Origin: a virus | Length of the DNA stretch: 38,899 bases | Direction: 5' to 3' (one strand) | Virus record (IMG/VR): IMGVR_UViG_3300037172_000103 | Coordinates: 1-38,899 of that record | Shown: one piece after another, positions 4,532 through 35,621 of the stretch | How the letters are laid out: each line of letters opens with the position of its first letter | How positions within the stretch are numbered: the first letter of the stretch is position 1 | Made by a program: the position numbers and the translations under genes | Notes under the pieces: model-generated | Database searches by the model: none | The model's input: the letters and a program-made list of their open reading frames with translations, nothing else | What the model was told of the DNA's origin: nothing

Positions 4532-4855
4532 ATGGCTGCAACGACCATGACGAAGACCAAGCTTATCGCATACCTGGCCGATGAACTCGGCGATCCGATC
4601 ACACGAAAAACCGTTGGCATCTTTCTCGACGAACTCGCCGACGTGGCCGTCAAAGAGACCAAGAAGAATGGCATCTTCGTTCTGCCTGGCTTGGGCCGGC
4701 TGGTGAAGGCGCATCGCAAAGCCCGCATGGGGCGCAATCCGCAAACCGGCGAGGCCATCCAGATCAAGGCGAAAACCGTAGTGAAGTTCCGCGTGGCCAA
4801 GGCGGCAAAGGAAGCCATCGCGCCCACGGCCGCGTCGAAGAGTAAAGCGGCGTGA
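4532..4855 (+). CDS. HU/IHF-family DNA-binding protein
   Basis: The 107-residue protein has the HU/IHF layout. An N-terminal helical part (TKTKLIAYLADELG, KTVGIFLDELADVAVKE) is followed by the FVLPGLGRL strand, the DNA-contacting arm with GRNPQTGEAI, and a closing KTVVKFRVAKAAKEA. A basic, Ala/Lys/Ser-rich tail ends the protein. The family bends DNA and acts in recombination, replication and packaging. It lies next to the integrase, so a role as an accessory factor for att-site recombination is plausible. A GGAGG six bases before the ATG fixes the start. It is transcribed opposite to its neighbours from its own promoter. Confidence 0.9.
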   Translation: MAATTMTKTKLIAYLADELGDPITRKTVGIFLDELADVAVKETKKNGIFVLPGLGRLVKAHRKARMGRNPQTGEAIQIKAKTVVKFRVAKAAKEAIAPTAASKSKAA

Positions 4856-7820: not shown

Positions 7821-7840
7821 TTTGAGCCTTTCGCAAATGA

Positions 7841-7896
7841 GCAGTCGGCAGTTGGCAGTTAGCAGCTAGTAGCCAACGGCCAATTGCCAATTGCTG
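7841..7896. repeat. Heptad array 7, adjoins a promoter
   Basis: Units CAGTCGG, CAGTTGG, CAGTTAG, CAGCTAG, then CGGCCAA and TTGCCAA. Its last unit supplies the TTGCTG -35 element of the 7961 promoter. Confidence 0.9.
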
Positions 7897-7926
7897 TTTT
7901 TCTCGGATCGCGCTAGACTCCGATCC
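7891..7926 (+). promoter_or_regulatory. Rightward promoter with GGATCG dyad
   Basis: TTGCTG (7891-7896) and TAGACT (7914-7919) are spaced by 17 bases. A dyad, GGATCG-N10-CGATCC (7905-7926), surrounds the -10. The core is almost identical to the leftward early promoter at 2747-2782. Confidence 0.65.
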
Positions 7927-12200: not shown

Positions 12201-12220
12201 GGGGAAAAAAGAAGAGAAGA

Positions 12221-12264
12221 GCCGTTAGCCGTTGGCCGTTGGCGAATTGCCAATTGCGAATTGC
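12221..12264. repeat. Heptad array 11, partly translated
   Basis: Units CCGTTAG, CCGTTGG, CGAATTG and CCAATTG. The 65-aa gene reads into the array, so its C-terminus (IGNSPTANG) is array-encoded. Confidence 0.85.
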
Positions 12265-12422
12265 TCGATCGCCGCTTTCGCGCCCGCGATCCAGCCGCGC
12301 TGCACGTGCTCGCTGAGTGCGTCCCAATCCGATTCGACGGTGGGCATCCATTCGCGGACGCAGGCGAAAAAGCCCTCGTAGCAGGCGCGGCCAAGCGCTT
12401 CGTCGCCGCCGGTCATCATCAT
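12225..12422 (-). CDS. Small tail-region protein, 65 aa
   Basis: The sequence GGDEALGRACYEGFFACVREW, then WDALSEHVQRGWIAGAKAAIEQ, resembles small helical proteins seen near tail genes of many phages. The last nine residues are encoded by the heptad array, which supplies the stop. Three consecutive ATG codons make the start ambiguous by a few residues. Function unknown. Confidence 0.55.
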   Translation of the reverse strand: MMMTGGDEALGRACYEGFFACVREWMPTVESDWDALSEHVQRGWIAGAKAAIEQFAIGNSPTANG

Positions 12423-16389: not shown

Positions 16390-19300
16390 TTAATATCCTC
16401 GCGGCGTGCGCCGGGCGATCTCGCTCACATGGTTCACGGCTTCGCCCACGGCTTGCCGTTTGGTCGCGGCCATCATGCGGGCGGCATCGGCTTTGCGCAT
16501 CACGTCATCGGCCACGATGGCGCCGCGCATGTCGTAATGGTTGTGGGTATCGCCACCGCCCCGCGTGGCTTCGGAGTTGGGCGTAATTTGGGATCCGCGC
16601 GAAAGGTTTAAAATCTCCGGGCCTTGTTCGCCCACCCAGGTGGGGCCTCCGGACCAGTCATTCGTGCCGGCCGCGTTGGCGCCAATATCACCGCCCACAT
16701 CGCCGCCGCCATCACCGCCGCCATCACCGCCGCCACTATCGCCGCCGCTGCTACTCGACGAGTCCAGCGAACCCAGGCCGCCTCCATCGCCGCCTCCATC
16801 GCCGCCGGCCGAACTGCTCATCGATGAGCTCAATTTATTTAGGGCTGCGGTGTTCGCGCCCAGAGCCGTGGTGTTGCTGGATACGGCCGTAGTGAGGCCC
16901 GTAAGCGCGCCGGCCACACCTCCGCCGCCAAGTCCTCCCGCAGTTCCTCCCGCGGTCCTGCTGCCCAGAATTCCGCCAATGACAGGGATCGATGCGAGTG
17001 GCCCAGCCGTTGCGGCCGCGGTTCCGCTGCCCGTCCCCGTCACGCTTCCGGGGGCGCCACCGCCGAGCGCTGCCGTCAGGGCAGTCACGGCCTGGGTGTT
17101 CGCGGTGAGCGCCGTGGTATTCGCGTCCTTGCCTCCGAGCGCTCCGCCGAGTCCGGGGATTTTCGTTGCGATCTTTGCCGTGATCGGCGCCAGCAGCCGG
17201 TCGAGCTGATGCTTCAAGGCCATTTCCGCCAGGCTGTTGAAGTAGCCGGCCCACATCGAGCGCAATTCTTTGATCAGCTTGGCGTGGCCGCCGCGCTCGG
17301 TCTCGAGGATGTCGAGAAACGATTTCACCGCATTGTCTTCAAAGCCCTTGGTCGCCTGCGTCAGCAGGTCGAAGGTGAACTCGCCTTCCGATTTCACGCG
17401 CTGCAGGTCATCCACCCAGGCACGAATGCCGGCGCCAATGCCGCCAGTCTTCAGCAGCATCTTGTCTTCTTCTTCTTCCATGTCGCGGATGGCCAGCTTG
17501 ATCGGGGTCACGTCGCGGCCAATCGCTTCCCACTGCACCTGCATGGCGCGCAGGTCGGCGAGTTGCTGCGTGAGTTCCTGCATCTTGGCGCCCGCGGGGT
17601 TCAGGGCATCGACGCGCTCAAAGGCTTTTGTGGCGTTCTGCACCGCCTGGAGCTGAATCAGTTCCTGGCGCGCGCGGGTAATCTCATCGGCGCTCATGTG
17701 GAATTCGTGCCCAAGTTTCTGCGCTTCCGCATCCAATTTGGCGAACGGAGATCCCGAGCCCAGAGCCGTGGCTTCGATCTGTGCTTCCTTCAATTGCTCT
17801 GCCAGCTTCGAGAACTCGTTGCCGATCTTTGTGTTTTGCAGGGCGACGAACTTCTGCCGCAGCTTCTCCACTTCCTCCGCCGGAACTTTGTGACCCAGGT
17901 CTTCGAGATCGTGCGTCGCCTTCTTGACCTGGCTATCGATCGATTCAAACGCCGAGCCGCCGTTGTGCGCGAGCGAAAGAATCTCATCATCGATTTTGTG
18001 ACTCTCGGCGGCAAAGGCCGCAGCTTGAATTCTGGGCAGCACCACATCGGTCTTGTTGGCCGTCTCCGCCTGCAGCCCGCTTTCGCCCGCGCCGATCGAG
18101 CGGCGTAGTTGCTGTGCATAGGCCTGACCCTGATTCGCCGGGGGCCCGATCGTCGGCACGAGTTTGTCCGCCGCCGGCAGGCTGGCATACAGGTCTTTCA
18201 GGTTTTGCAGTTCCTCGCGGATGGGCGTGAGCCCGGCCAACACCTTTGCCTGCTCAGCAGCCACCTTGCCGGCGGAGCTGGCTTCGGCGTCCAGGGCGGA
18301 AAGGCGCTCCGCATCGTGGGTGTGCTCTTCGCCCAGCTTGCGGTTGAACTCCTCTTCGGCTTTCGCCGTCTGCTCAATCAGGGCAGTGCGCCGTTCGGTC
18401 ACGGCGTTTTCCGCCAGCAGCCGCACAATCGCCTGGTTGTCGCGCAGCTCCGGTTTCACGCTGGCGCGCTGGTCGAGAATTTTCTTTTCCGCCTCCGCCG
18501 CGGCCGTGGCGCGAATGGTCTCGGCGGTTCCCTTCCCGGTCGATTCCGCCATCAGCACCGCCGAAGCGGCCGCCGCGCGCGAGGTATCGCCGAGGCGGGT
18601 GAGCGCCTGAATTTCGGCCTTCACTTCATCGGTGTATTTCTTTCGGGCTTCCAGGTCTTCGGCAATTTTCGTGTCGTTGGCTTTGGTATCGCTCTGGCCT
18701 TCGAGCACGTGCATCCGGCGCAGAACCTCCTGGTACTGATACAGGGCGTTCAGTTTCTCCTGGGTTACAGGAGTGGCGAAGGGATCGTCGATGAGGCTCT
18801 TGGCGCTGTAGCCTTTCGCCTGCTGATCGGTGAAAAGCGCAATCTGCGCGTCCATATTGGTCTTTGCTCTTTCCGTTTCATCGGCCAGATAGGCGGCGCT
18901 TTCCGCCTTGGCCTTGAAGGGATCGGACTGAGACGCCAGATCGGCGTAGTGCTGCTCAAACTCTTTGACGTGCTTATTGATCTCTTCCACTTCGCGCGTG
19001 GGCGCCGTGGTGCCCAGAATGTGCAGGCCCTCGCCCACGATCGCCAGGAAGCGGGTGAACGGCGCGTTGGCCTCTGCGGCGGCTTTACCTTCACGCTCGC
19101 TGGCTTTGGCCAGGGCGTCCACCTGTTTCGCGAGCTCCTCTACCTCTTTCGAAACGCCTTCTTTGATCTTGAAGTTGGCTTCGGCGGTTTTGTCGCCGCG
19201 CAGCCCGGCAATCTTGGCCTCGAGCTTGTCGATATCGCGCTCGTTGCCGGAAGAGGCATCGGCAAACACCGTGCGGGTGTTGCGCACCGATTCGGTGTAT

Positions 19301-19656
19301 TCGTCCTGCTTTTTCTTGGCTTCATCGATTCTGCGCGAGAGGCCTTCGGCGAATTCAAAAATGGCAATGCCCAGCGCGGAGAACGCGACGCCCGGCAGAA
19401 TGCCGCCGAGGGCCTTGCCCAGCGCGGGAAAGGTTTCGCTCACAATGCGCGCGACCGGGCGCGCAACATGAATTCCGAGAGCTTCATCGATCAGGCGCAG
19501 GCCTTCCTGGCCATCGCGTCCGGTCTTTTTCCACTGGCGCGCCATTTCGGCCGAAGCAAAGCCGTTGAACCCCTGCACGCCCTTCATCTTGTCGAGGAAG
19601 TCGCTCGGGTCCAGGCCCAGCCGGGCCGCCATTGCGCCTACGTTAAGAGTCGCCAT
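16390..19656 (-). CDS. Tape measure protein
   Basis: This is the longest regular tail gene (1088 residues). It has a TMP-like N-terminus (LDPSDFLDKMKGVQGFNGFASAEMARQWKK), a hydrophobic stretch near residues 85-105 (LGGILPGVAFSALGIAIFEFAEG), very long Ala/Glu/Lys-rich helices, and a Gly/Ser/Asp-rich low-complexity zone near residues 950-1000. The C-terminus has WVGEQGPEILNLSRGSQI, a motif common at tape measure ends. The family sets tail length and is ejected with the DNA. At about 1.5 angstrom per residue the tail would be roughly 160 nm (inference). The ATG at 19656 was preferred to a GTG nine codons upstream. Confidence 0.9.
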   Translation of the reverse strand: MATLNVGAMAARLGLDPSDFLDKMKGVQGFNGFASAEMARQWKKTGRDGQEGLRLIDEALGIHVARPVARIVSETFPALGKALGGILPGVAFSALGIAIFEFAEGLSRRIDEAKKKQDEYTESVRNTRTVFADASSGNERDIDKLEAKIAGLRGDKTAEANFKIKEGVSKEVEELAKQVDALAKASEREGKAAAEANAPFTRFLAIVGEGLHILGTTAPTREVEEINKHVKEFEQHYADLASQSDPFKAKAESAAYLADETERAKTNMDAQIALFTDQQAKGYSAKSLIDDPFATPVTQEKLNALYQYQEVLRRMHVLEGQSDTKANDTKIAEDLEARKKYTDEVKAEIQALTRLGDTSRAAAASAVLMAESTGKGTAETIRATAAAEAEKKILDQRASVKPELRDNQAIVRLLAENAVTERRTALIEQTAKAEEEFNRKLGEEHTHDAERLSALDAEASSAGKVAAEQAKVLAGLTPIREELQNLKDLYASLPAADKLVPTIGPPANQGQAYAQQLRRSIGAGESGLQAETANKTDVVLPRIQAAAFAAESHKIDDEILSLAHNGGSAFESIDSQVKKATHDLEDLGHKVPAEEVEKLRQKFVALQNTKIGNEFSKLAEQLKEAQIEATALGSGSPFAKLDAEAQKLGHEFHMSADEITRARQELIQLQAVQNATKAFERVDALNPAGAKMQELTQQLADLRAMQVQWEAIGRDVTPIKLAIRDMEEEEDKMLLKTGGIGAGIRAWVDDLQRVKSEGEFTFDLLTQATKGFEDNAVKSFLDILETERGGHAKLIKELRSMWAGYFNSLAEMALKHQLDRLLAPITAKIATKIPGLGGALGGKDANTTALTANTQAVTALTAALGGGAPGSVTGTGSGTAAATAGPLASIPVIGGILGSRTAGGTAGGLGGGGVAGALTGLTTAVSSNTTALGANTAALNKLSSSMSSSAGGDGGGDGGGLGSLDSSSSSGGDSGGGDGGGDGGGDVGGDIGANAAGTNDWSGGPTWVGEQGPEILNLSRGSQITPNSEATRGGGDTHNHYDMRGAIVADDVMRKADAARMMAATKRQAVGEAVNHVSEIARRTPRGY

Positions 19657-19691
19657 AAGAATTTTATTTGCTGCGGGTAGCACGTTCGTGC

Positions 19692-19727: not shown

Positions 19728-20051
19728 ATGAAAGCCATTCACGTTTTACTCGCAGTTATGTTGCTTGGTGCCGCGGTCGAAGCTCGATCCCAATCCTGCG
19801 ACAGCCTATTGCCCTCATCGGGCAAGACCTACCAGCAGGCCGTCGACGAGGCCTTTGCCGGCTATTCCGTGAACCCGGATGCGGACAGCCGCGCTCGCGC
19901 CGAAGCCATCATGGCCCGGAACCTGTTCGATAGCCTGTGCCAGCTCGATGAAGAGAATGGAACCTTTGAGGCTCACGTCTTCATGCGGGAGGAAGAAAAG
20001 CGTCTCGATCGCATCGCCGCCGCCTGGGAGAAGCGGAAGAAGAAGAACTAG
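19728..20051 (+). CDS. Secreted moron protein, 107 aa
   Basis: The protein starts MKAIHVLLAVMLLGAAVEARS, a Sec signal peptide with probable cleavage near residues 20-22. A mature helical domain of about 85 residues follows, with two cysteines and a very basic end (EKRKKKN). It is on the plus strand between two minus-strand tail genes, has its own promoter and dyad, and its stop overlaps the stop of the 20048 gene. These are hallmarks of a moron. A periplasmic lysogeny or superinfection-exclusion role is an inference. No family was recognised. Confidence 0.65.
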   Translation: MKAIHVLLAVMLLGAAVEARSQSCDSLLPSSGKTYQQAVDEAFAGYSVNPDADSRARAEAIMARNLFDSLCQLDEENGTFEAHVFMREEEKRLDRIAAAWEKRKKKN

Positions 20052-20695
20052 ATTCCCAGCGCGCCCAGCTCGCTCTCGATCACTTCCGCCATCTTGGCCA
20101 CAGCCTGGTCCTTGCTCTGGTCGAATGCCGGCTCCAGCCACGGGTAGGGCGGCGTGCTCAGGTTGCCATAATCGCGCGACGTCGGCGTCGTATAGCTATT
20201 GAGCCGTTTACCCTGTTTGCGCGCGGCCGCGGCATCCCGCCGGTATTTCTGGTTGCTGTTCAGGCCTTCGCCGGGGGCGCGATGCCCCACTTCCAAAAAG
20301 TATCCATACACGCCGGGGTTGGTGGTCGCATCCGCCGGTTTCACTTCGCGGTTGGAGGCCTGGCGGCTGATGGCGCCGAGCTTGGTCGCATAGGGCCCGC
20401 GCGATACGCCAAAACCGCTGTGCCGCGTCAGGTCCGGATTCCAGCCCGGTCCAATCAACACATACTTCTGATCGGTGCCGGTCGCCTGCGAAGCGGTGCG
20501 CATGCGCGTCACCACCACAATATCGCCGGCCAGCATGCCAGTCAGCCGGTGCACCAGTTGCTCGGCTTTGTCTTTGATCACCTTGCCGCCCGCCTGCAGT
20601 GCATCGCGCGTGACGGGGTTGGCTACGACGACCGCGATCTTATCCAGCCGGGCATTGAGTTCCGGCAGCCCGTCGATGGAGAAGACAAACTGCAT
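20048..20695 (-). CDS. HK97 gp10-like tail/head-tail protein
   Basis: The 215-residue protein has FSIDGLPELNARLDKIAVVVANPVTRDALQAGGKVIKDKAEQLV at its N-terminus, then GVYGYFLEVGHRAP and a C-terminal PYPWLEPAFDQSKDQAVAKMAEVIE. This is the layout of HK97 gp10-type proteins, which act at the head-tail junction or tail completion. The insertion around residues 75-125 makes it longer than the usual 120-160 residues. Its place between the chaperones and the tape measure is unusual, since it normally precedes the tube gene. Confidence 0.75.
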   Translation of the reverse strand: MQFVFSIDGLPELNARLDKIAVVVANPVTRDALQAGGKVIKDKAEQLVHRLTGMLAGDIVVVTRMRTASQATGTDQKYVLIGPGWNPDLTRHSGFGVSRGPYATKLGAISRQASNREVKPADATTNPGVYGYFLEVGHRAPGEGLNSNQKYRRDAAAARKQGKRLNSYTTPTSRDYGNLSTPPYPWLEPAFDQSKDQAVAKMAEVIESELGALGI

Positions 20696-20706
20696 AGGGA
20701 GCTCGC

Positions 20707-20752
20707 AGCAATTGGCAACCGGCCGTTTGCTAACCGCTAATTGCTAACTGCT
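20707..20752. repeat. Heptad array 12
   Basis: Units CAATTGG, CAACCGG and CCGTTTG, then CTAACCG, CTAATTG and CTAACTG. It ends four bases from the TAA of the chaperone extension. Confidence 0.9.
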
Positions 20753-20755
20753 TTC

Positions 20756-21202
20756 TTAACTCTTTCCCGTGGTCAGCCGCTTCACCAGCTCCCCCTGCGC
20801 GGCTTTTTGTTCCGGGGTCAGGCTGGCCAGGGCGGAAAGGCCTTCTTTGAAGGCCGCGAATTGCGGCGTGGTTTGGGGCGCGGTGCGCATCAGTTCCTCT
20901 TCGGCTTCGCGCTGGGCGCGGTCTTCCGGCAGTTCCGGCAAAAAGTCTTTTGCCGAAAATCCGTCCGGATGTTTCTTTTGGTCGCGGGCAATGTTCCAGG
21001 TCTCGGCGCAAATCATGGCGGCGCCGTGCAGATTCTTGCGGTCGCGCGCGCGCAGTTGACGCATGAGCAGCTCGAAGGCCGCGGGCAGCATTTGCAGAAA
21101 TTCGGAATCGGACAGGCCCAGATCGACGCGAGCGATCGACCACAGTTTGCCGATGGTTACTTCTTCGACGTCGCTACTTCCGCCGGCGCCACCGGCTGCG
21201 CG
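20756..21202 (-). CDS. Tail assembly chaperone extension (gpT-like), reached by -1 frameshift
   Basis: This open frame continues after the slippery heptamer and gives 148 residues: a short Gly-rich linker, then VTIGKLWSIARVDLGLSDSEFLQMLPAAFELLMRQL, a helical chaperone-like domain. The frame has no ATG, GTG or TTG between its upstream TGA (21229-21227) and an internal ATG at 21091. The conserved-looking N-terminal helix can therefore only be made by frameshifting from the 21157-21804 gene. The fusion would be 349 residues. In the lambda system gpGT bridges tube subunits and tape measure. An ATG start at 21091 would give a truncated 111-residue product instead. Confidence 0.7.
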   Translation of the reverse strand, partial: RAAGGAGGSSDVEEVTIGKLWSIARVDLGLSDSEFLQMLPAAFELLMRQLRARDRKNLHGAAMICAETWNIARDQKKHPDGFSAKDFLPELPEDRAQREAEEELMRTAPQTTPQFAAFKEGLSALASLTPEQKAAQGELVKRLTTGKS

Positions 21203-21804
21203 TTTGGGAGTGGCTCGATATCGGTTTCAGGCGGCGCGATCAGGCCGGCACGCAAGGCCTTGGCAATCGCCGAGGTCAGCTCGTCGCCATTCTTCAAATG
21301 GATGTGCGAGCCGAGGTCCTCGCGCGTGACCGTCTCGCGATAAACCTTCTTGCCTTTCTCTTCCTCGAATTTGTGCAACCCCACCCACAACGCCAGCAGC
21401 ATTCGCTCCGGGTCGCCCTCCGGAGAAATCTTCCACCAGGTGGCCTTGTTATAGAGCGAGTCGCCGGCGGCCGCATCTTCGTCGAGCGTCGCTTTCAGCG
21501 CCAGGGCTTCGCCCAGCAATTCCTCGAAGCGGGCATATTTGGCATCGTCCCAGGCCTCGCCTTTGGCGGGTCGCTGCGCATCGGCTTCGCTGAGCACTTC
21601 GACGCGTTGCTCGCGCAGCGTGCGCTTCTCTTCCCGCGTGAGCGCCGGACGTCCGCTGGCTTTGTGGCGCTCGCGATCGAGCGCGGCGGTTGCCTTCTTG
21701 TACAAGATGACGCCTTGAATCGGGTAGGCGAGCGGATAGCTCTGGCCGCCGAGAGTCACGGTTGCCGGCGCGCCGGCGAGGGCTTCCTGCAAAACTGGAT
21801 CCAT
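21157..21804 (-). CDS. Tail assembly chaperone (gpG-like)
   Basis: The 215-residue protein lies between the tail tube genes and the tape measure, the standard slot for gpG. It starts MDPVLQEALAGAPATVTLGGQSYPLAYPIQGVI, as in chaperones that resemble tube-adaptor proteins, followed by a charged helical body and an Ala/Pro linker. AAAGGA eight bases before the ATG fixes the start. A CCCAAAC heptamer in frame at codons 200-201, followed by a hairpin, predicts a -1 shift into the next frame. Family assignment rests mainly on position and architecture. Confidence 0.7.
   Translation of the reverse strand: MDPVLQEALAGAPATVTLGGQSYPLAYPIQGVILYKKATAALDRERHKASGRPALTREEKRTLREQRVEVLSEADAQRPAKGEAWDDAKYARFEELLGEALALKATLDEDAAAGDSLYNKATWWKISPEGDPERMLLALWVGLHKFEEEKGKKVYRETVTREDLGSHIHLKNGDELTSAIAKALRAGLIAPPETDIEPLPNAQPVAPAEVATSKK
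21182..21208 (-). promoter_or_regulatory. Programmed -1 frameshift site
   Basis: The minus strand reads C CCA AAC in the zero frame (21208-21202), a canonical X XXY YYZ heptamer that re-pairs as CCC AAA. Five bases downstream a GCCGG-TGGCG-CCGGC hairpin (21196-21182) can stimulate slippage. The -1 frame is closed upstream by TGA (21229-21227) and open downstream for 148 codons. Confidence 0.75.
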
Positions 21805-21822
21805 GAGATGTCCTTTGAGGCC

Positions 21823-21885
21823 AGCAATTGGCAGCTAGCCGTTAGCGAAAATCGATTCGCAGTGGCCAATGGCCAATGGCTAACT
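21823..21885. repeat. Heptad array 13
   Basis: Units CAATTGG, CAGCTAG and CCGTTAG, then a CGAAAAT-like degenerate part, then GCCAATG (twice). It lies between the chaperone and the 70-aa gene. Confidence 0.8.
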
Positions 21886-21888
21886 TCT

Positions 21889-22101
21889 TCAGCCGAGGCC
21901 AGGGAAAAGCGGCCGATCGGCGGGTAAATGGCGGGCGATTTGTTCGAGCCAGGCGCGCACTTCGGCGTCCTGGAGAGACCGGTCGAGCTTCACCATATCG
22001 CCGAGGCTGCCCGCCGGCGAGAGGTAGTGGTCGAGGCGGGCGACAATCGCGCCCAGCTTCAACACCAGTTCCTGCGATGGCTGGAAGGCCGCTTCGCCCA
22101 T
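21889..22101 (-). CDS. Small tail-region protein, 70 aa
   Basis: A helical protein (MGEAAFQPSQELVLKLGAIV, later SLQDAEVRAWLEQIARHL) between the second tube protein and the chaperone. No ribosome site is obvious before the ATG. Two hairpins separate it from the tube gene. No family was recognised. It might be a small chaperone-associated factor, by position only. Confidence 0.55.
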   Translation of the reverse strand: MGEAAFQPSQELVLKLGAIVARLDHYLSPAGSLGDMVKLDRSLQDAEVRAWLEQIARHLPADRPLFPGLG

Positions 22102-22213: not shown

Positions 22214-22672
22214 CTACTCGGCGATTCCACCGCCGCCAACCGTCGTCAGGGTTTCCACGCCATAAACGTTGATCCCGAACTCGTACATGTTCACCTTGTA
22301 GCGATCCACTTTCGCGGCGCCAAAGGTTTCCACATAGCAAAGCCCGGTGAAGGTCGATCCATCGACCAGCGTCACCTTAAAGCCCAGCAGCGTGAGCGCC
22401 TGCATATACCCCATCAGCGCGGTGATGCCGGCATTCTGCGGATCGAACACGCCTTCCCCGCTCCACTTGCCGTTGTCGACTACAACCGGGATCGGGAACT
22501 TATTGACCCCTGGGCTGTCCAAACAGGTCGCATCGTCAAAATCGACTTTGGCTGAAGTCTTGTCGAACTTCTCTAACTGCGGCAGAGCCGCATAAACGCT
22601 GCCTCCGGTGACGGGTGCGACGGTGAAAGCGATGACCGTGCCGCGCCCTTGATAACCTACGGGTATACCCAT
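22214..22672 (-). CDS. Tail tube protein, second paralogue
   Basis: The 152-residue protein starts MGIPVGYQGRGTVIAF after AAGGAG. It shares a skeleton with the 22781 gene: PVGY-GRG start, LPQLEKF versus LAQLQSF, a D-x-TC motif, LVDGSTF versus LVDGSYF, and a closing beta-rich half. This is the size and fold style of a siphovirus tube subunit. With its paralogue it may form a mixed or decorated tube, or one copy may be specialised for the tube ends. The hairpin after its stop is unusual. Confidence 0.7.
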   Translation of the reverse strand: MGIPVGYQGRGTVIAFTVAPVTGGSVYAALPQLEKFDKTSAKVDFDDATCLDSPGVNKFPIPVVVDNGKWSGEGVFDPQNAGITALMGYMQALTLLGFKVTLVDGSTFTGLCYVETFGAAKVDRYKVNMYEFGINVYGVETLTTVGGGGIAE

Positions 22673-22780: not shown

Positions 22781-23206
22781 TTAAACCAGCGTGGGCACCA
22801 TGCCGCCGGAGAGGCGGAGTTGGGCGCTCCACACATTGAGCTTGTTGATCTTCACGCCGAAAGCCTTGAATTCGCTGACGAAGGCCTGGAAGCTGAAATA
22901 CGATCCATCCACCAGCAGCACTTTCCAAAAGACCAGCGCGTTGGTTACGTGAAAGCCCTCGAGCGCCAGGTAGGTCGGATCTTCCTGATTGAGCAACCCG
23001 GTGATGTCGAGTTCGCCGGCATCGACGCGCACCGCCAGGGCGCGGGTAAAGTTGTCGGGCGTGGTAATGCAAGTCTGGTCGACGATGGTTTGCTTCGAGC
23101 CCGAGTGCTCGAAGGACTGCAGTTGCGCGAGCGACGTGTAGGTCACGCCCAGCGCGGAATACTCGAGCAGCGAGCCGCGGCCGTTATATCCAACCGGAAG
23201 AGACAT
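22781..23206 (-). CDS. Tail tube protein, first paralogue
   Basis: The 141-residue protein starts MSLPVGYNGRGSLLEYS. It aligns by eye with the 22214 gene across its length (tube motif pairs listed there) and has a typical beta-rich tube composition. The Shine-Dalgarno sequence AGGAG lies nine bases before the ATG and is part of the adjoining heptad array (TAGGAGC unit). Position after tail completion and before the chaperones supports major tail protein identity. Confidence 0.75.
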   Translation of the reverse strand: MSLPVGYNGRGSLLEYSALGVTYTSLAQLQSFEHSGSKQTIVDQTCITTPDNFTRALAVRVDAGELDITGLLNQEDPTYLALEGFHVTNALVFWKVLLVDGSYFSFQAFVSEFKAFGVKINKLNVWSAQLRLSGGMVPTLV

Positions 23207-24449: not shown

Positions 24450-24460
24450 GGGAGAGGACA

Positions 24461-24513
24461 GCCGTTGGCAATTGGCAATTAGCGAACGGCTGCTAACTGC
24501 CAACTGCGAATTG
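24461..24513. repeat. Heptad array 17, two-armed
   Basis: Left arm units CCGTTGG, CAATTGG and CAATTAG are followed by inverted units CTGCTAA, CTGCCAA and CTGCGAA. The two halves can pair to form an imperfect hairpin. Confidence 0.9.
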
Positions 24514-24520
24514 CTTTTTC

Positions 24521-26236: not shown

Positions 26237-26261
26237 GTTTTGGGGGAGCCTTTAGTTTTGG

Positions 26262-26306
26262 AGCAACCGGCAATTGGCAGTTAGCCAACGGCCAGTTGCC
26301 AACTGC
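26262..26306. repeat. Heptad array 19, two-armed
   Basis: Units CAACCGG, CAATTGG and CAGTTAG, then CCAACGG, CCAGTTG and CCAACTG. It ends near the TAA of the 26313 gene. Confidence 0.9.
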
Positions 26307-26312
26307 TTTTTC

Positions 26313-26666
26313 TTACAGGTAGGCCTCGGGAAACAGGTCCGAAAGCGGCTGCTCGTCGTCGCAGGGCACGTCCGCGGCCAGGGGAGGAAAGCTGGCATTT
26401 GCAGGCGATTGGCGGGCGTTTCGCGCGGGTTTTTCCACTTCGTTCCCTGGTCCAGCGGCGAAGAGCTCGAGCTGCACGCCCTGCAGCCGTCCGCTGCTGT
26501 TTTTGCAGTCTTTCGCTGCAACTTCGGCAGCTTTTCCAGGACGAACTTTCCCAGGTCGAACCCGGGTTTTGGGCCGGTAGAAGTCGTCTTCGTAAAACTG
26601 CTTGGCCACCTGGTGGCCGCCGCCCGCCTCGCGCACCGCGCGCATCTGATAGGAACGATTGAACAT
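26313..26666 (-). CDS. Hypothetical head-region protein, 117 aa
   Basis: The start MFNRSYQMRAVREAGGGH at 26666 was preferred over a GTG eight codons upstream, because the latter lacks a ribosome site. The protein has a basic middle with a duplicated RPGK unit (VRPGKVRPGK) and an acidic C-terminus (DVPCDDEQPLSDLFPEAYL). No family was recognised. It is flanked on both sides by heptad arrays. Confidence 0.5.
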   Translation of the reverse strand: MFNRSYQMRAVREAGGGHQVAKQFYEDDFYRPKTRVRPGKVRPGKAAEVAAKDCKNSSGRLQGVQLELFAAGPGNEVEKPARNARQSPANASFPPLAADVPCDDEQPLSDLFPEAYL

Positions 26667-29413: not shown

Positions 29414-32400
29414 TTACTGGTTGATGTGGCATTCGGCCTGATAAGCACCGATGTTGATGGCGTCGCTGGAGGTGCCGGTGGCGCCGCCAAGGGTGAAGGT
29501 GCCCGCGGTCGAAGCGTTCCACTGGATCACGAAATTCAGCGAGAACGGATAGTTCGTTCCCACAGCCGCGACGTTGCCGCCAGTTTGAAGAATCCCGCCT
29601 CCGGTGGTCTGAGCCGCAGTTCCAACCGAAGCGCCAGATCCGCTATAAGTAGCGAACATGCCGAATTCGATGGCTTGTGCCGCCACGGTGGTCGAGATCG
29701 AGAATCTTGCAGGTGCTACGGCCGTCGAAATGTTGTAAATGCCGGTGCAGGTTCCCGTGATCACCGCTCCCGCGGCGATCGTTCCGGAAGTAATAATCGC
29801 GGTGATGCTGGTGGTGGAATTGGTGAATGAACTGGTCAGGACCATCGGCGCGTAAGCCGTATAGCCCAGATCCTGCGCAGCGCCGGCCCCATTGGTGCCG
29901 AGAGCATTGCCCGTCGACGTCCAGGTGCCGGTAATGCCCGCGCCAGCGCATCCCGTGGTGGTGAGCCCGCCGTTGGCATCCGTGCACAGCGCTACGCCGG
30001 TACTGGCGGAGACTGTCCCCGCGCTCATCAGTTTCGAATCCGTACCTTGCACGCTGACCGCTGTCGGTACCGCGCTGGCGTTGGTCTGGTTGGCCACCAC
30101 GGTGTAAGCCGCTTGAGCCGCCAGACTCGCAAGCGGCAAGGCCGTGCCGGCGACAAGTTGATTCGAGCTGTTGGTCTTCACGAAAGCCGCGCTGGCCGGA
30201 ACCGCCGCGCCATTCACATCCACAGTATTGGGCGCAGTTCCCTGCCCGCTCAGATAGCCCTCGAAGTTCGTGCCGTCAAAATAGATGGTGGCTGAGGTGG
30301 GAGCGGTTTCAGAAGCGGCGGCCAGCACCAGGTTGGCGGTGCCGCCGTTCAAGGTCAGGCCGGAAGCGGTGGGGTTAATGTTGACCACCGAAGAGCTGTA
30401 ATTCGCGACCGTGATCCATTGTCCAATCAGGCAAGTTGCGCAAGTTGGCAAGTTGACGGTTGCGGTCGACGCCATCGAATTTGGCGCATAGAACATCGCC
30501 GATTCGGCGAACTGCGCTGCCGTGGGTGAGTTTCCACCGGCGGCGATGGCTGCCGCAGTGTTGGCCGGGCATCCGCTGGTGGTCGCCCCGCCGTTGGCAT
30601 CCGTGCACAGCGCTATGGCTGCGCTGGTAGAGACCGTGCCCGCACTCATCAGTTTCGAATCCGTGCCCTGCACGGCCACCGCTGTCGGTACCGCGCTGGC
30701 ATTCGTCAGGTTGGCCACGGCGGTGTAGGCTGCCTGGGCCGCCAGACTGGCCAGCGGGAAGGAAGCGCCAGCGATAAGCTGCCTCGAGCTGTTGGTGGAC
30801 AGGAAGGTGGCGCTTGCCGGAACTACCGCTCCGTTCACATCCACGGCGTTGGGCACAGTCCCCTGCCCGACGAGATAGCCTTCGAAGTTCGCGCCATCAA
30901 AAAATACGATTGCGGCCGTGGGAGCGGTTTCGGAAGCGGCCAGGAGTTGCAGGTTGGCCGTGCCCCCATTCAGGGTCAGGCCGGAAGCGGTGGGATTGAT
31001 GTTGACCACCGAAGAGCTGTAATTCTGTACCGTGATCCACTGCCCGGCAAAGCACGTCAGGCAAGTGGGAAGGTTGACGGTCGCGGTGGAAGCCATCGTA
31101 TTCGGCGCATAGAACATGGCGTACTGGCTGAATTGCGCCGTGGTGGCGGAGTTTCCCCCGGCAGCGATGGTGAGCACGGAGTTGAAGGCATTTTTCGGAA
31201 CGATATCGGCGTCAAAGTTGGTCGCAACCGCGGGATCGACAAAGAAGCTCGCGACCTGGCCGGCATACAGAACAAATGTGCCTGCGCCGTTGATCGTGCC
31301 GGCGGCGGTAATCGTTACCTGGGTCACGGGGTTCGGCGATCCCGAAGCTAGTGTGACCGGAATGGCCAGCTTGAAGTTGCACTTCGGTACGCCCAGCGTG
31401 GCGGCCGTGGGCAAAGTGTCGGTGCCTGCGCCCGTATAGGACTGATACACCACGCGCGTGCCGCAGTCGGTCGCCACAATTCCGGTACCGGTTGCGTTAT
31501 TTTGCACTCGCCCATTCACGCCTGGCAGAAAGTCAGAAATCGGGCCGGCGGTGGTGCCATCCGGAGTGTGCCCAATCATGCGCACAACGTTCGCCACCGT
31601 GGTTCCGAAGCTGGCGTAAGGCACCAGCCCATTCGGATTCACCTGGCTGGTATCGATCTGCACGTTGCCGGCAGCATCGGTTGAGTATTCATCTTCACTG
31701 CGGGAAGCAGCCGTGCAGGAAATGGTCAGGTGATTCGCGTCCGCGATTAGATTGGTGGGCGCGTTCGGAGAGCCGCAGGCCGCCGACTTGATGGTCAAGC
31801 TCTTCTCGGCCGTCGCTCCCAAAGCAACCGCGACCACCGAGGCTGTCGCCTGATAAGCGGCGTCCACGCAGCAAGCTTCAGGATTGGTAATGCTGACGGC
31901 AGTCGATCCGCCGGTAGTCACCGCGTCGGAGATCGAGATGAGCACGCTGGCGCTGGTACCGCATCCCGTGAAGGTGCCAGAAATCGTAAGCGAGGTGATC
32001 ACGCCACTGATGAGGTTCGGGGTGAGTGTGCCGCCGGTGCAGGTCGTAGGAAAAACTTTTACGGTCGGAGCGGTATAGGCCAATCCGCCGCTGACTTGCG
32101 TGGTTGCCGTGATGTTTCCGCCGGAGGTGGTTGCGGTGAAGTAGGCGCCGTAACCCGGCGTCTTTCCACCCATCAGTGCGCCTGCCACTTCAAAGGTCTC
32201 AAAGTGGGGCTTGTCGGTGATCGGCGTTGAGGCCGCCACTACTTCCATGTTGTAGAGCGGATAAGCCGCCCAGCCATTGGTGGTGCTCAGCGTCTTGCAA
32301 TACGTGTTGCCAATGGTGATCCCGCTAACTTTTTTCGGTCCGCCGGCGATGGCATCCAGGTAGATTCCGACCGCGCCTTCCTGGCAAAACCGCCAGGGGT

Positions 32401-33220: not shown

Positions 33221-34824
33221 TAAACTCCAGTGATCGAAACGGATGCCCCGGTGGTGGTGGAAATCACGTAGCGCAGATTGGTGTTCGAAAGCGGCCATCC
33301 CGCGCACTGCCCGGGTTCGAGCTGCAGGCCTGCAGTCGAGCCCGAGGTGGTCACGCTCGAGGGGCCGATGAAGACGCTGATGGTGTTATTCGGCGAAGCG
33401 CACACGCTGAAGCTGTGCGCGGCATTGGAGGCCAGAGCCACGGCCGTGGTTGTGACCGCTTGCGTGAAGTCGATGGCCGCGCCAAACCCCGCCGGCTGGG
33501 TGGGCGTGGTGGGCGCCGTCGCCATACTGATCGGCTGCGTGGCCTGATAGAAAGCGCCCGCAACGTTCAGCGTGCTTTGGTTGCTGGCGATGACCACCGG
33601 CTGCGAAGCCGCCATGGTCGCCTGGCCGGGAGTGCCGCCACTGCAACCCACTTTGCAATCCGTTTCTACGTAGCCGCTGCCATCCACCGGCGAGATCACG
33701 CTGCTGGGCGTATTGGGCGCAATGGCCAGGCTCACCGGCTGCGTCGATTGATAGAAAATTCCTGTCACCGGCGTAGTGGGCGCGGTCGCCATGCTCACCG
33801 GCTGGGTTGCCTGATAGAAAGTGCCGGTCACCGGCGTGGTGGGCATCGTCGCGATACTCACCGGCTGTGTCGACTGAAAGAAAGTTCCCGCCACGTTCAG
33901 CGTGCTCTGGTTGCTCGCAATCACCACCGGCTGCGAAGCCGCCATGGTCGCCTGGCCAGGGGTGCCGGCTGCGCATCCAGTCTCGCAATTCACTTTTACG
34001 TTGCCGCTGCCATCCACCGGCGAGGTAATGGTCGAGGGAGTGTTCGGCGCGGTCGCCAGGCTCACCGGTTGCGTCGCCTGATAGAAAGTGCCGGTCACGG
34101 GCGTGGTGGGCGCCGTCGCCAGGCTTACCGGCTGCGTCGCTTGAAAGAAAGTTCCCGCCACGTTCAGCGTGCTCTGGTTGCTCGCAATCACCACCGGCTG
34201 CGAGGCCGCCATGGGCTGCTGGCCAGGAGTGCCGGCAGCGCATCCCACTTTGCAATTCGTTTCGATGTAACCATTGCCATCCACCGGCGAAGTGATGCTG
34301 CTCGCGCTGCCACCGGCCGCGGACGGATTATCGGTATAGCCAAAGAGAATCACGATCACGCTGCCGGTACCGGTAATGGTGGGTGTGATCTGGCCATAGG
34401 CGGAAATGCCCGCGGCGGTCGAGGTCACGTATTCGCCAGCGGTCAGGCAGTTGCCAATCGTCGAGGCTGGCAAAATGCCGCCAATCACCGGCGAGACCAG
34501 CGCACCCGTACCCGCGGCCACTGCCGTGGCGGAATCGAGCGAGAGCGTGCAACCGCTCATCCCGCCCACGGGGTTCGGGATCCACAGAATCCGGTAATAG
34601 CTGATGCCGCGCGTATCAAAGCCCGCGGAGGCCGTGGAACTCGAGTTGAAGGCGAAGTCGCCGCCCAATTGCCAGGGATACCCGCCGGTCTGCTGCAACT
34701 TGGTCGAGCCTGGGCCCACAATTTGGGCCGTGGCCAGCGGGACCAGAAACACATCGAGCGTGGCGAGTGCGGGCGCGATCGCGAGCAGCGCCAGAACGAA
34801 CAGGAATTTTTGCAGCGTCTTCAT
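33220..34824 (-). CDS. Secreted repeat protein with QATQPVS units
   Basis: The 534-residue protein starts MKTLQKFLFVLALLAIAPALA, a Sec signal peptide. The central region holds six copies of a repeat around QATQPVSLATAPTTP and three copies of an SPVDGxGxxxxNCxxGCxxGTPGQ block followed by SQPVVIASNQSTLNV. The latter motif also occurs in other phage structural proteins. It ends with an FSVCASPNNTISVFIGPSSVTTSG beta-sandwich. Cysteine pairs repeat in each block. It is the first of three coupled secreted-type genes. The start at 34824 was chosen over an upstream frame encoded by repeat and terminator sequence. Confidence 0.65.
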   Translation of the reverse strand: MKTLQKFLFVLALLAIAPALATLDVFLVPLATAQIVGPGSTKLQQTGGYPWQLGGDFAFNSSSTASAGFDTRGISYYRILWIPNPVGGMSGCTLSLDSATAVAAGTGALVSPVIGGILPASTIGNCLTAGEYVTSTAAGISAYGQITPTITGTGSVIVILFGYTDNPSAAGGSASSITSPVDGNGYIETNCKVGCAAGTPGQQPMAASQPVVIASNQSTLNVAGTFFQATQPVSLATAPTTPVTGTFYQATQPVSLATAPNTPSTITSPVDGSGNVKVNCETGCAAGTPGQATMAASQPVVIASNQSTLNVAGTFFQSTQPVSIATMPTTPVTGTFYQATQPVSMATAPTTPVTGIFYQSTQPVSLAIAPNTPSSVISPVDGSGYVETDCKVGCSGGTPGQATMAASQPVVIASNQSTLNVAGAFYQATQPISMATAPTTPTQPAGFGAAIDFTQAVTTTAVALASNAAHSFSVCASPNNTISVFIGPSSVTTSGSTAGLQLEPGQCAGWPLSNTNLRYVISTTTGASVSITGV

Positions 34825-35522: not shown

Positions 35523-35569
35523 AGAGAATCTCCTTAAATCGAATTGGTTTGGGATCGGGACGGGAAAAG

Positions 35570-35621
35570 CAATTGGCAGTCGGCCGTGAGCCAACTGCCA
35601 ACCGCTTATTGCAAATTGCTA
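35570..35621. repeat. Heptad array 22, two-armed, contains a stop codon
   Basis: Units CAATTGG, CAGTCGG and CCGTGAG, then CCAACTG, CCAACCG and CAAATTG. It includes the TAG (35619-35621) of the capsid gene. Confidence 0.9.

Follow-up and report, generated by a model that had tools for sequence, protein, structure and literature searches.

A probable lambda G/GT-type −1 frameshift in the tail assembly chaperone genes of an uncultured phage

In a 38,899-base record from an uncultured virus (hereafter the window, meaning the whole stretch of DNA that was analysed), we describe a programmed −1 frameshift of the lambda G/GT type, which very probably takes place at C CCA AAC, a heptamer situated close to the 3′ end of a gene encoding a G-type tail assembly chaperone. 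The first-pass annotation had proposed such a frameshift in these genes, and the proposal is supported by the conservation of the heptamer and of the two-frame layout in related phages, as well as by the purifying selection acting on the T frame; judging from the sequences, the frameshift is probably real and functional. The phenomenon itself is long known and belongs to the textbooks, and the case presented here is a convincing, ordinary example of it from an uncultured phage group. For the gene model, it means a correction: a predicted 349-aa fusion and a 215-aa short form instead of one gene with a truncated neighbour.

The region under study comprises the following features:

21157..21804, minus strand: G-like tail assembly chaperone ORF, zero frame, 215 aa, with homologues in five IMG/VR contigs
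21202..21208, minus strand: putative slippery heptamer C CCA AAC, codons 200–201 of G, recognized by sequence and phase
21182..21196, minus strand: downstream hairpin GCCGG(T)-GGC-(G)CCGGC after a 5-nt spacer, recognized by its fold and by the hairpins of relatives
20756..21226, minus strand: T-like −1 frame, open for 148 codons after the shift

In the ORF list of the window, the zero frame extends from ATG 21804 to TAA 21159–21157, with the CCA and the AAC of the heptamer as codons 200 and 201 of the G ORF. The −1 frame is closed at TGA 21229–21227 and then remains open until TAA 20758–20756, and the shift window common to both frames comprises 23 codons. The spacer separating the heptamer from the hairpin is GCGCA. 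A −1 shift was computed to yield a fusion of 201 + 148 = 349 residues, and both this length and that of the 215-residue short form, recomputed from the sequence, coincide with those predicted by the first-pass annotation. The heptamer lies where it had been placed (21208–21202) and in the zero-frame phase, the hairpin at 21196–21182 is present with its five-base spacer, and the −1 frame opens after the TGA named and continues for the 148 codons claimed. The original observation is thus confirmed to the single base, every coordinate and number in it being right.

Taken by itself, the window sequence makes a merely suggestive case, the heptamer being mildly unlikely by chance (P about 0.03–0.07). 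The coding sequences of the window contain 31 in-phase X XXY YYZ heptamers per 10,153 codons, and two of these 31 are CCCAAAC. When the sequence of the shift window was dinucleotide-shuffled, the probability of finding at least one heptamer in the 23 codons was 0.07 for any such heptamer and 0.026 for those with Y = A/T. The hairpin folds at −10.4 kcal/mol in isolation, and an equally good hairpin at such spacing appeared in 7% of the shuffles. That the window hairpin is significant by itself was therefore rejected (P = 0.07, z = −0.5, in a GC-rich sequence). The signal exceeds chance because it is conserved in relatives.

Scans of IMG/VR gave five distinct related contigs, L005, L009, L015, L018 and L011, whose G proteins are, respectively, 67%, 50%, 58%, 40% and 32% identical to that of the window (L010, an identical copy of L009, was not counted as a distinct contig); the T identity between the window and L005 is 76%. 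The scans of genome contigs revealed no relatives, and nothing was found when annotated phages were searched with G, T and the major tail proteins. With the window included, six contigs are now available for comparison from a phage group in which these searches detected no cultured relatives.

All five related contigs retain a two-frame G/T layout that can be joined by a −1 shift. The heptamer CCCAAAC is found in phase at the corresponding place in L005, L009 and L015, the site in L018 is A AAA AAC, and that in L011, the most distant relative, is A AAC CCT, both being in phase for a −1 shift. The first-pass annotation had made its reading depend on whether related phages conserve the heptamer and the −1 frame, and both were found to be conserved: CCCAAAC in 3/5 contigs, AAAAAAC in 1/5 and AAACCCT in 1/5, with the layout kept in 5/5. 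The heptamer has thus turned over while the place and the direction of the shift stay fixed. With the shuffling procedure described above, heptamers with Y = A/T were found to arise by chance in the shift window with a probability of 0.05 for L005, 0.16 for L009, 0.03 for L015 and 0.01 for L018, values that are non-independent owing to shared ancestry. In L005, the seven bases of the heptamer are identical to those of the window and the flanks are variable. Synonymous substitution has come close to saturation or passed it (dS of 0.9 for the closest pair, window/L005, and >1 for the rest), and CCA accounts for only 36 of the 452 proline codons in the window. Since exactly these seven bases were kept despite the near-saturated synonymous sites and the rarity of CCA, the encoded Pro-Asn does not explain their retention.

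The comparison also bears on the idea that the change of frame reflects a gene in decay or an indel introduced by sequencing or assembly. The window is a record of an uncultured virus, and assemblies do carry single-base indels; nevertheless, the same two-frame layout in five other distinct contigs and the purifying selection on both the G and T frames largely refute this reading, to which we assign next to no probability. For the −1 frame, the comparison with L005 gave dN 0.16, dS 0.90 and dN/dS of about 0.18. Nor is it at all likely, even if slightly less implausible than an indel, that the fusion arises by transcriptional rather than ribosomal slippage. The six-A run in the A AAA AAC of L018 would be a plausible site for polymerase slippage, but CCCAAAC, the site in the window and three relatives, contains no runs longer than three bases, and three-base runs are too short for efficient polymerase slippage.

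A frameshift at the ribosome would be assisted by the downstream hairpin, and GC stems follow the heptamer in L005 (7 bp, at a distance of 5 nt), L009 (8 bp, 5 nt), L015 (6 bp, 7 nt) and L018 (8 bp, 6 nt), with stem sequences and loops that differ among these contigs. The shuffle P values are 0.018, 0.002, 0.009 and 0.003, respectively, and when they were combined with the 0.07 of the window by Fisher's method, the five loci gave about 1e-6, a figure that calls for caution given the relatedness of the loci. The hairpin of L011 is weak (shuffle P 0.11). As the variable loops fall out of register in the MAFFT alignment, no formal covariation count is claimed.

The T domains, when aligned, open with a conserved IGKLWxIAR-type helix and share an invariant DFLP motif. 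Pfam PF06223 (Phage_tail_T, gpT) matches the window T at E 6e-4, under the curated cut-off, and 4/6 T domains show weak matches to it at E ≤ 0.1. The alignment T vs. lambda gpT in hhalign gave no detectable similarity, and the AlphaFold model of T (pLDDT 60) was too poor for fold comparison. The earliest ATG, GTG or TTG of the −1 frame is ATG 21091, which lies within the conserved T domain, in agreement with the earlier claim that the N-terminal helix of the −1 frame lacks a usable start. In L005, L009, L015 and the window, T lacks any start codon before its conserved LW..A helix; in L018, the GTG at 4606 is a possible start before this helix, and L011 has one GTG before it.

These data allow us to weigh the possibility that ribosomes, after terminating at the G stop, reinitiate at ATG 21091 and translate T as a gene in its own right, with the heptamer present by chance. 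Such a start would open an ORF of 111 aa, and tail genes are packed tightly; however, ATG 21091 is located 66 nt beyond the G stop without a Shine–Dalgarno sequence ahead, and the heptamer is kept in phase across relatives. Moreover, a protein initiated at ATG 21091 would lack the conserved first helix, IGKLWSIARVDLGLSDSEFLQ, so that T does not suffice as a gene by itself. We consider independent translation of T improbable, if a little less so than transcriptional slippage, and retain the programmed −1 shift.

The G protein of the window has no direct Pfam or PHROG match, remaining under the threshold for phrog_2115 ('tail protein'), a family which its L011 homologue matches over nearly the whole profile (E 2e-10). 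Unlike this homologue, the window G carries an inserted segment of ~70 residues (about residues 40–113), modelled with low confidence by AlphaFold as two or three long helices. The AlphaFold model of G as a whole (pLDDT 63) was too poor for fold comparison, a Foldseek search with it gave no significant match, and hhalign revealed no detectable similarity between G and lambda gpG.

The genes surrounding the pair are as follows:

22781..23206, minus strand: second, paralogue-like major tail protein gene (phrog_158, E 2e-8; Pfam Phage_tail_3, E 0.005, under the cut-off)
22214..22672, minus strand: major tail protein gene upstream of G/T (phrog_158, E 5e-9)
20048..20695, minus strand: HK97-gp10-like tail completion gene between T and the tape measure gene (phrog_5, E 1e-12; TIGR01725 above the cut-off)
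16390..19683, minus strand: gene of a 1097-aa product, a probable tape measure protein judging solely from its size and its place in the gene order

Farther upstream, the same strand also carries head protease and capsid genes. The two overlapping frames are located between the major tail protein genes and the probable tape measure gene, with the gp10-like gene interposed, and this is the standard location of lambda G/GT. The gpG/gpGT arrangement claimed for the pair is in keeping with the major tail protein genes upstream and with the weak gpT-family match in 4/6 members. The 1097-aa ORF matched nothing in Pfam or PHROG, and nothing significantly in NCBIfam. The gp10-like gene sits after T and not at its usual place upstream of the major tail protein gene; a similar ORF follows T in L005, L009, L015, L018 and L011. 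The two adjacent genes matching phrog_158 are both present in L005 as well, and the pair possibly represents a duplication of the tube protein.

In lambda, G is the product of most ribosomes and GT that of the minority that shift by −1; the fusion binds the tape measure through its G part and the tail tube protein through its T part (PMC5009743). The window resembles lambda in the placement of G/T between the major tail protein and the probable tape measure, in the heptamer located towards the 3′ end of G, in the −1 direction and in a T domain without its own start, and its T has the weak gpT-family match. It differs in the site, which is G GGA AAG in lambda vs. C CCA AAC with an AAC A-site in the window, in the length of G (140 aa in lambda vs. 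215 aa with the ~70-residue insert), in the gp10-like gene separating T from the tape measure, and in the absence of direct sequence similarity of its G and T to those of lambda. What the sequences establish is the layout of the site, its retention in relatives and the coding selection on the −1 frame; the occurrence of the slip and its efficiency are inferred, as are, by analogy with lambda, the binding roles of both products. Most probably, the majority of ribosomes would end at TAA 21159–21157 and produce the 215-aa G-like protein, while a minority would slip back by one base with the P- and A-site tRNAs on CCA and AAC, which would then pair anew with CCC and AAA. A pause would be promoted by the GC hairpin that follows after five bases, and the shifted ribosomes would read 148 further codons to give the 349-aa GT-like fusion. 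As in lambda, the tape measure protein may then become covered with many copies of G, and the rare fusion may use its T part to recruit the tail tube protein.

With its AAC A-site codon, the heptamer belongs to a eukaryote-like and not an E. coli-like class of sites (PMC5009743), which makes its efficiency in the host of this phage uncertain. The haloarchaeal viruses HCTV-1 (G_GGA_AAC) and HCTV-2 (A_AAA_AAC, exactly as in L018) are documented to have X XXA AAC sites in their g-t genes and also share the −1 layout (PMC5009743); their hosts, however, are halophilic archaea, and the likeness considered here is that of layout and site type. More generally, the PRFect paper counts 2,397 tail-chaperone frameshifts annotated across 3,679 SEA-PHAGES genomes (PMC10885494). 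One may speculate, although we find it rather doubtful, that the fixation of X XXA AAC sites in this phage group, whose asparagine A-site codon is less typical of bacterial sites than AAG and which are followed 5–7 nt downstream by a GC hairpin of changing sequence, reflects a host tRNA-Asn that is unusually shift-prone, and that the G:GT ratio is tuned unlike that of lambda.

Apart from the frameshift region, many intergenic gaps of the window contain degenerate 7-nt-periodic repeats (units like TTGGCCA/GCCAATT) that form long hairpins with z down to −6.3. Examples are found at:

2782–2845, 7831–7899, 12208–12267, 20700–20760, 21815–21890, 24455–24520, 26250–26315 and 35560–35620: gaps with 7-nt-periodic repeats

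The [AG]GC triplets spaced by 7 are ~4× denser in intergenic than in genic sequence, and two such repeat hairpins flank the G/T pair. A similar 7-nt repeat array occurs in L009 (8537–8575), and GCCAATTGCCAATTGCC is present in 11 IMG/VR contigs. These hairpins may be terminators or mobile palindromes. Finally, imperfect direct repeats of about 300 nt, 67–81% identical, were observed at 29948–30868 and 33503–34399, inside the ORFs of 1297 aa and 584 aa, which suggests repeated domains of structural or fibre-like proteins.
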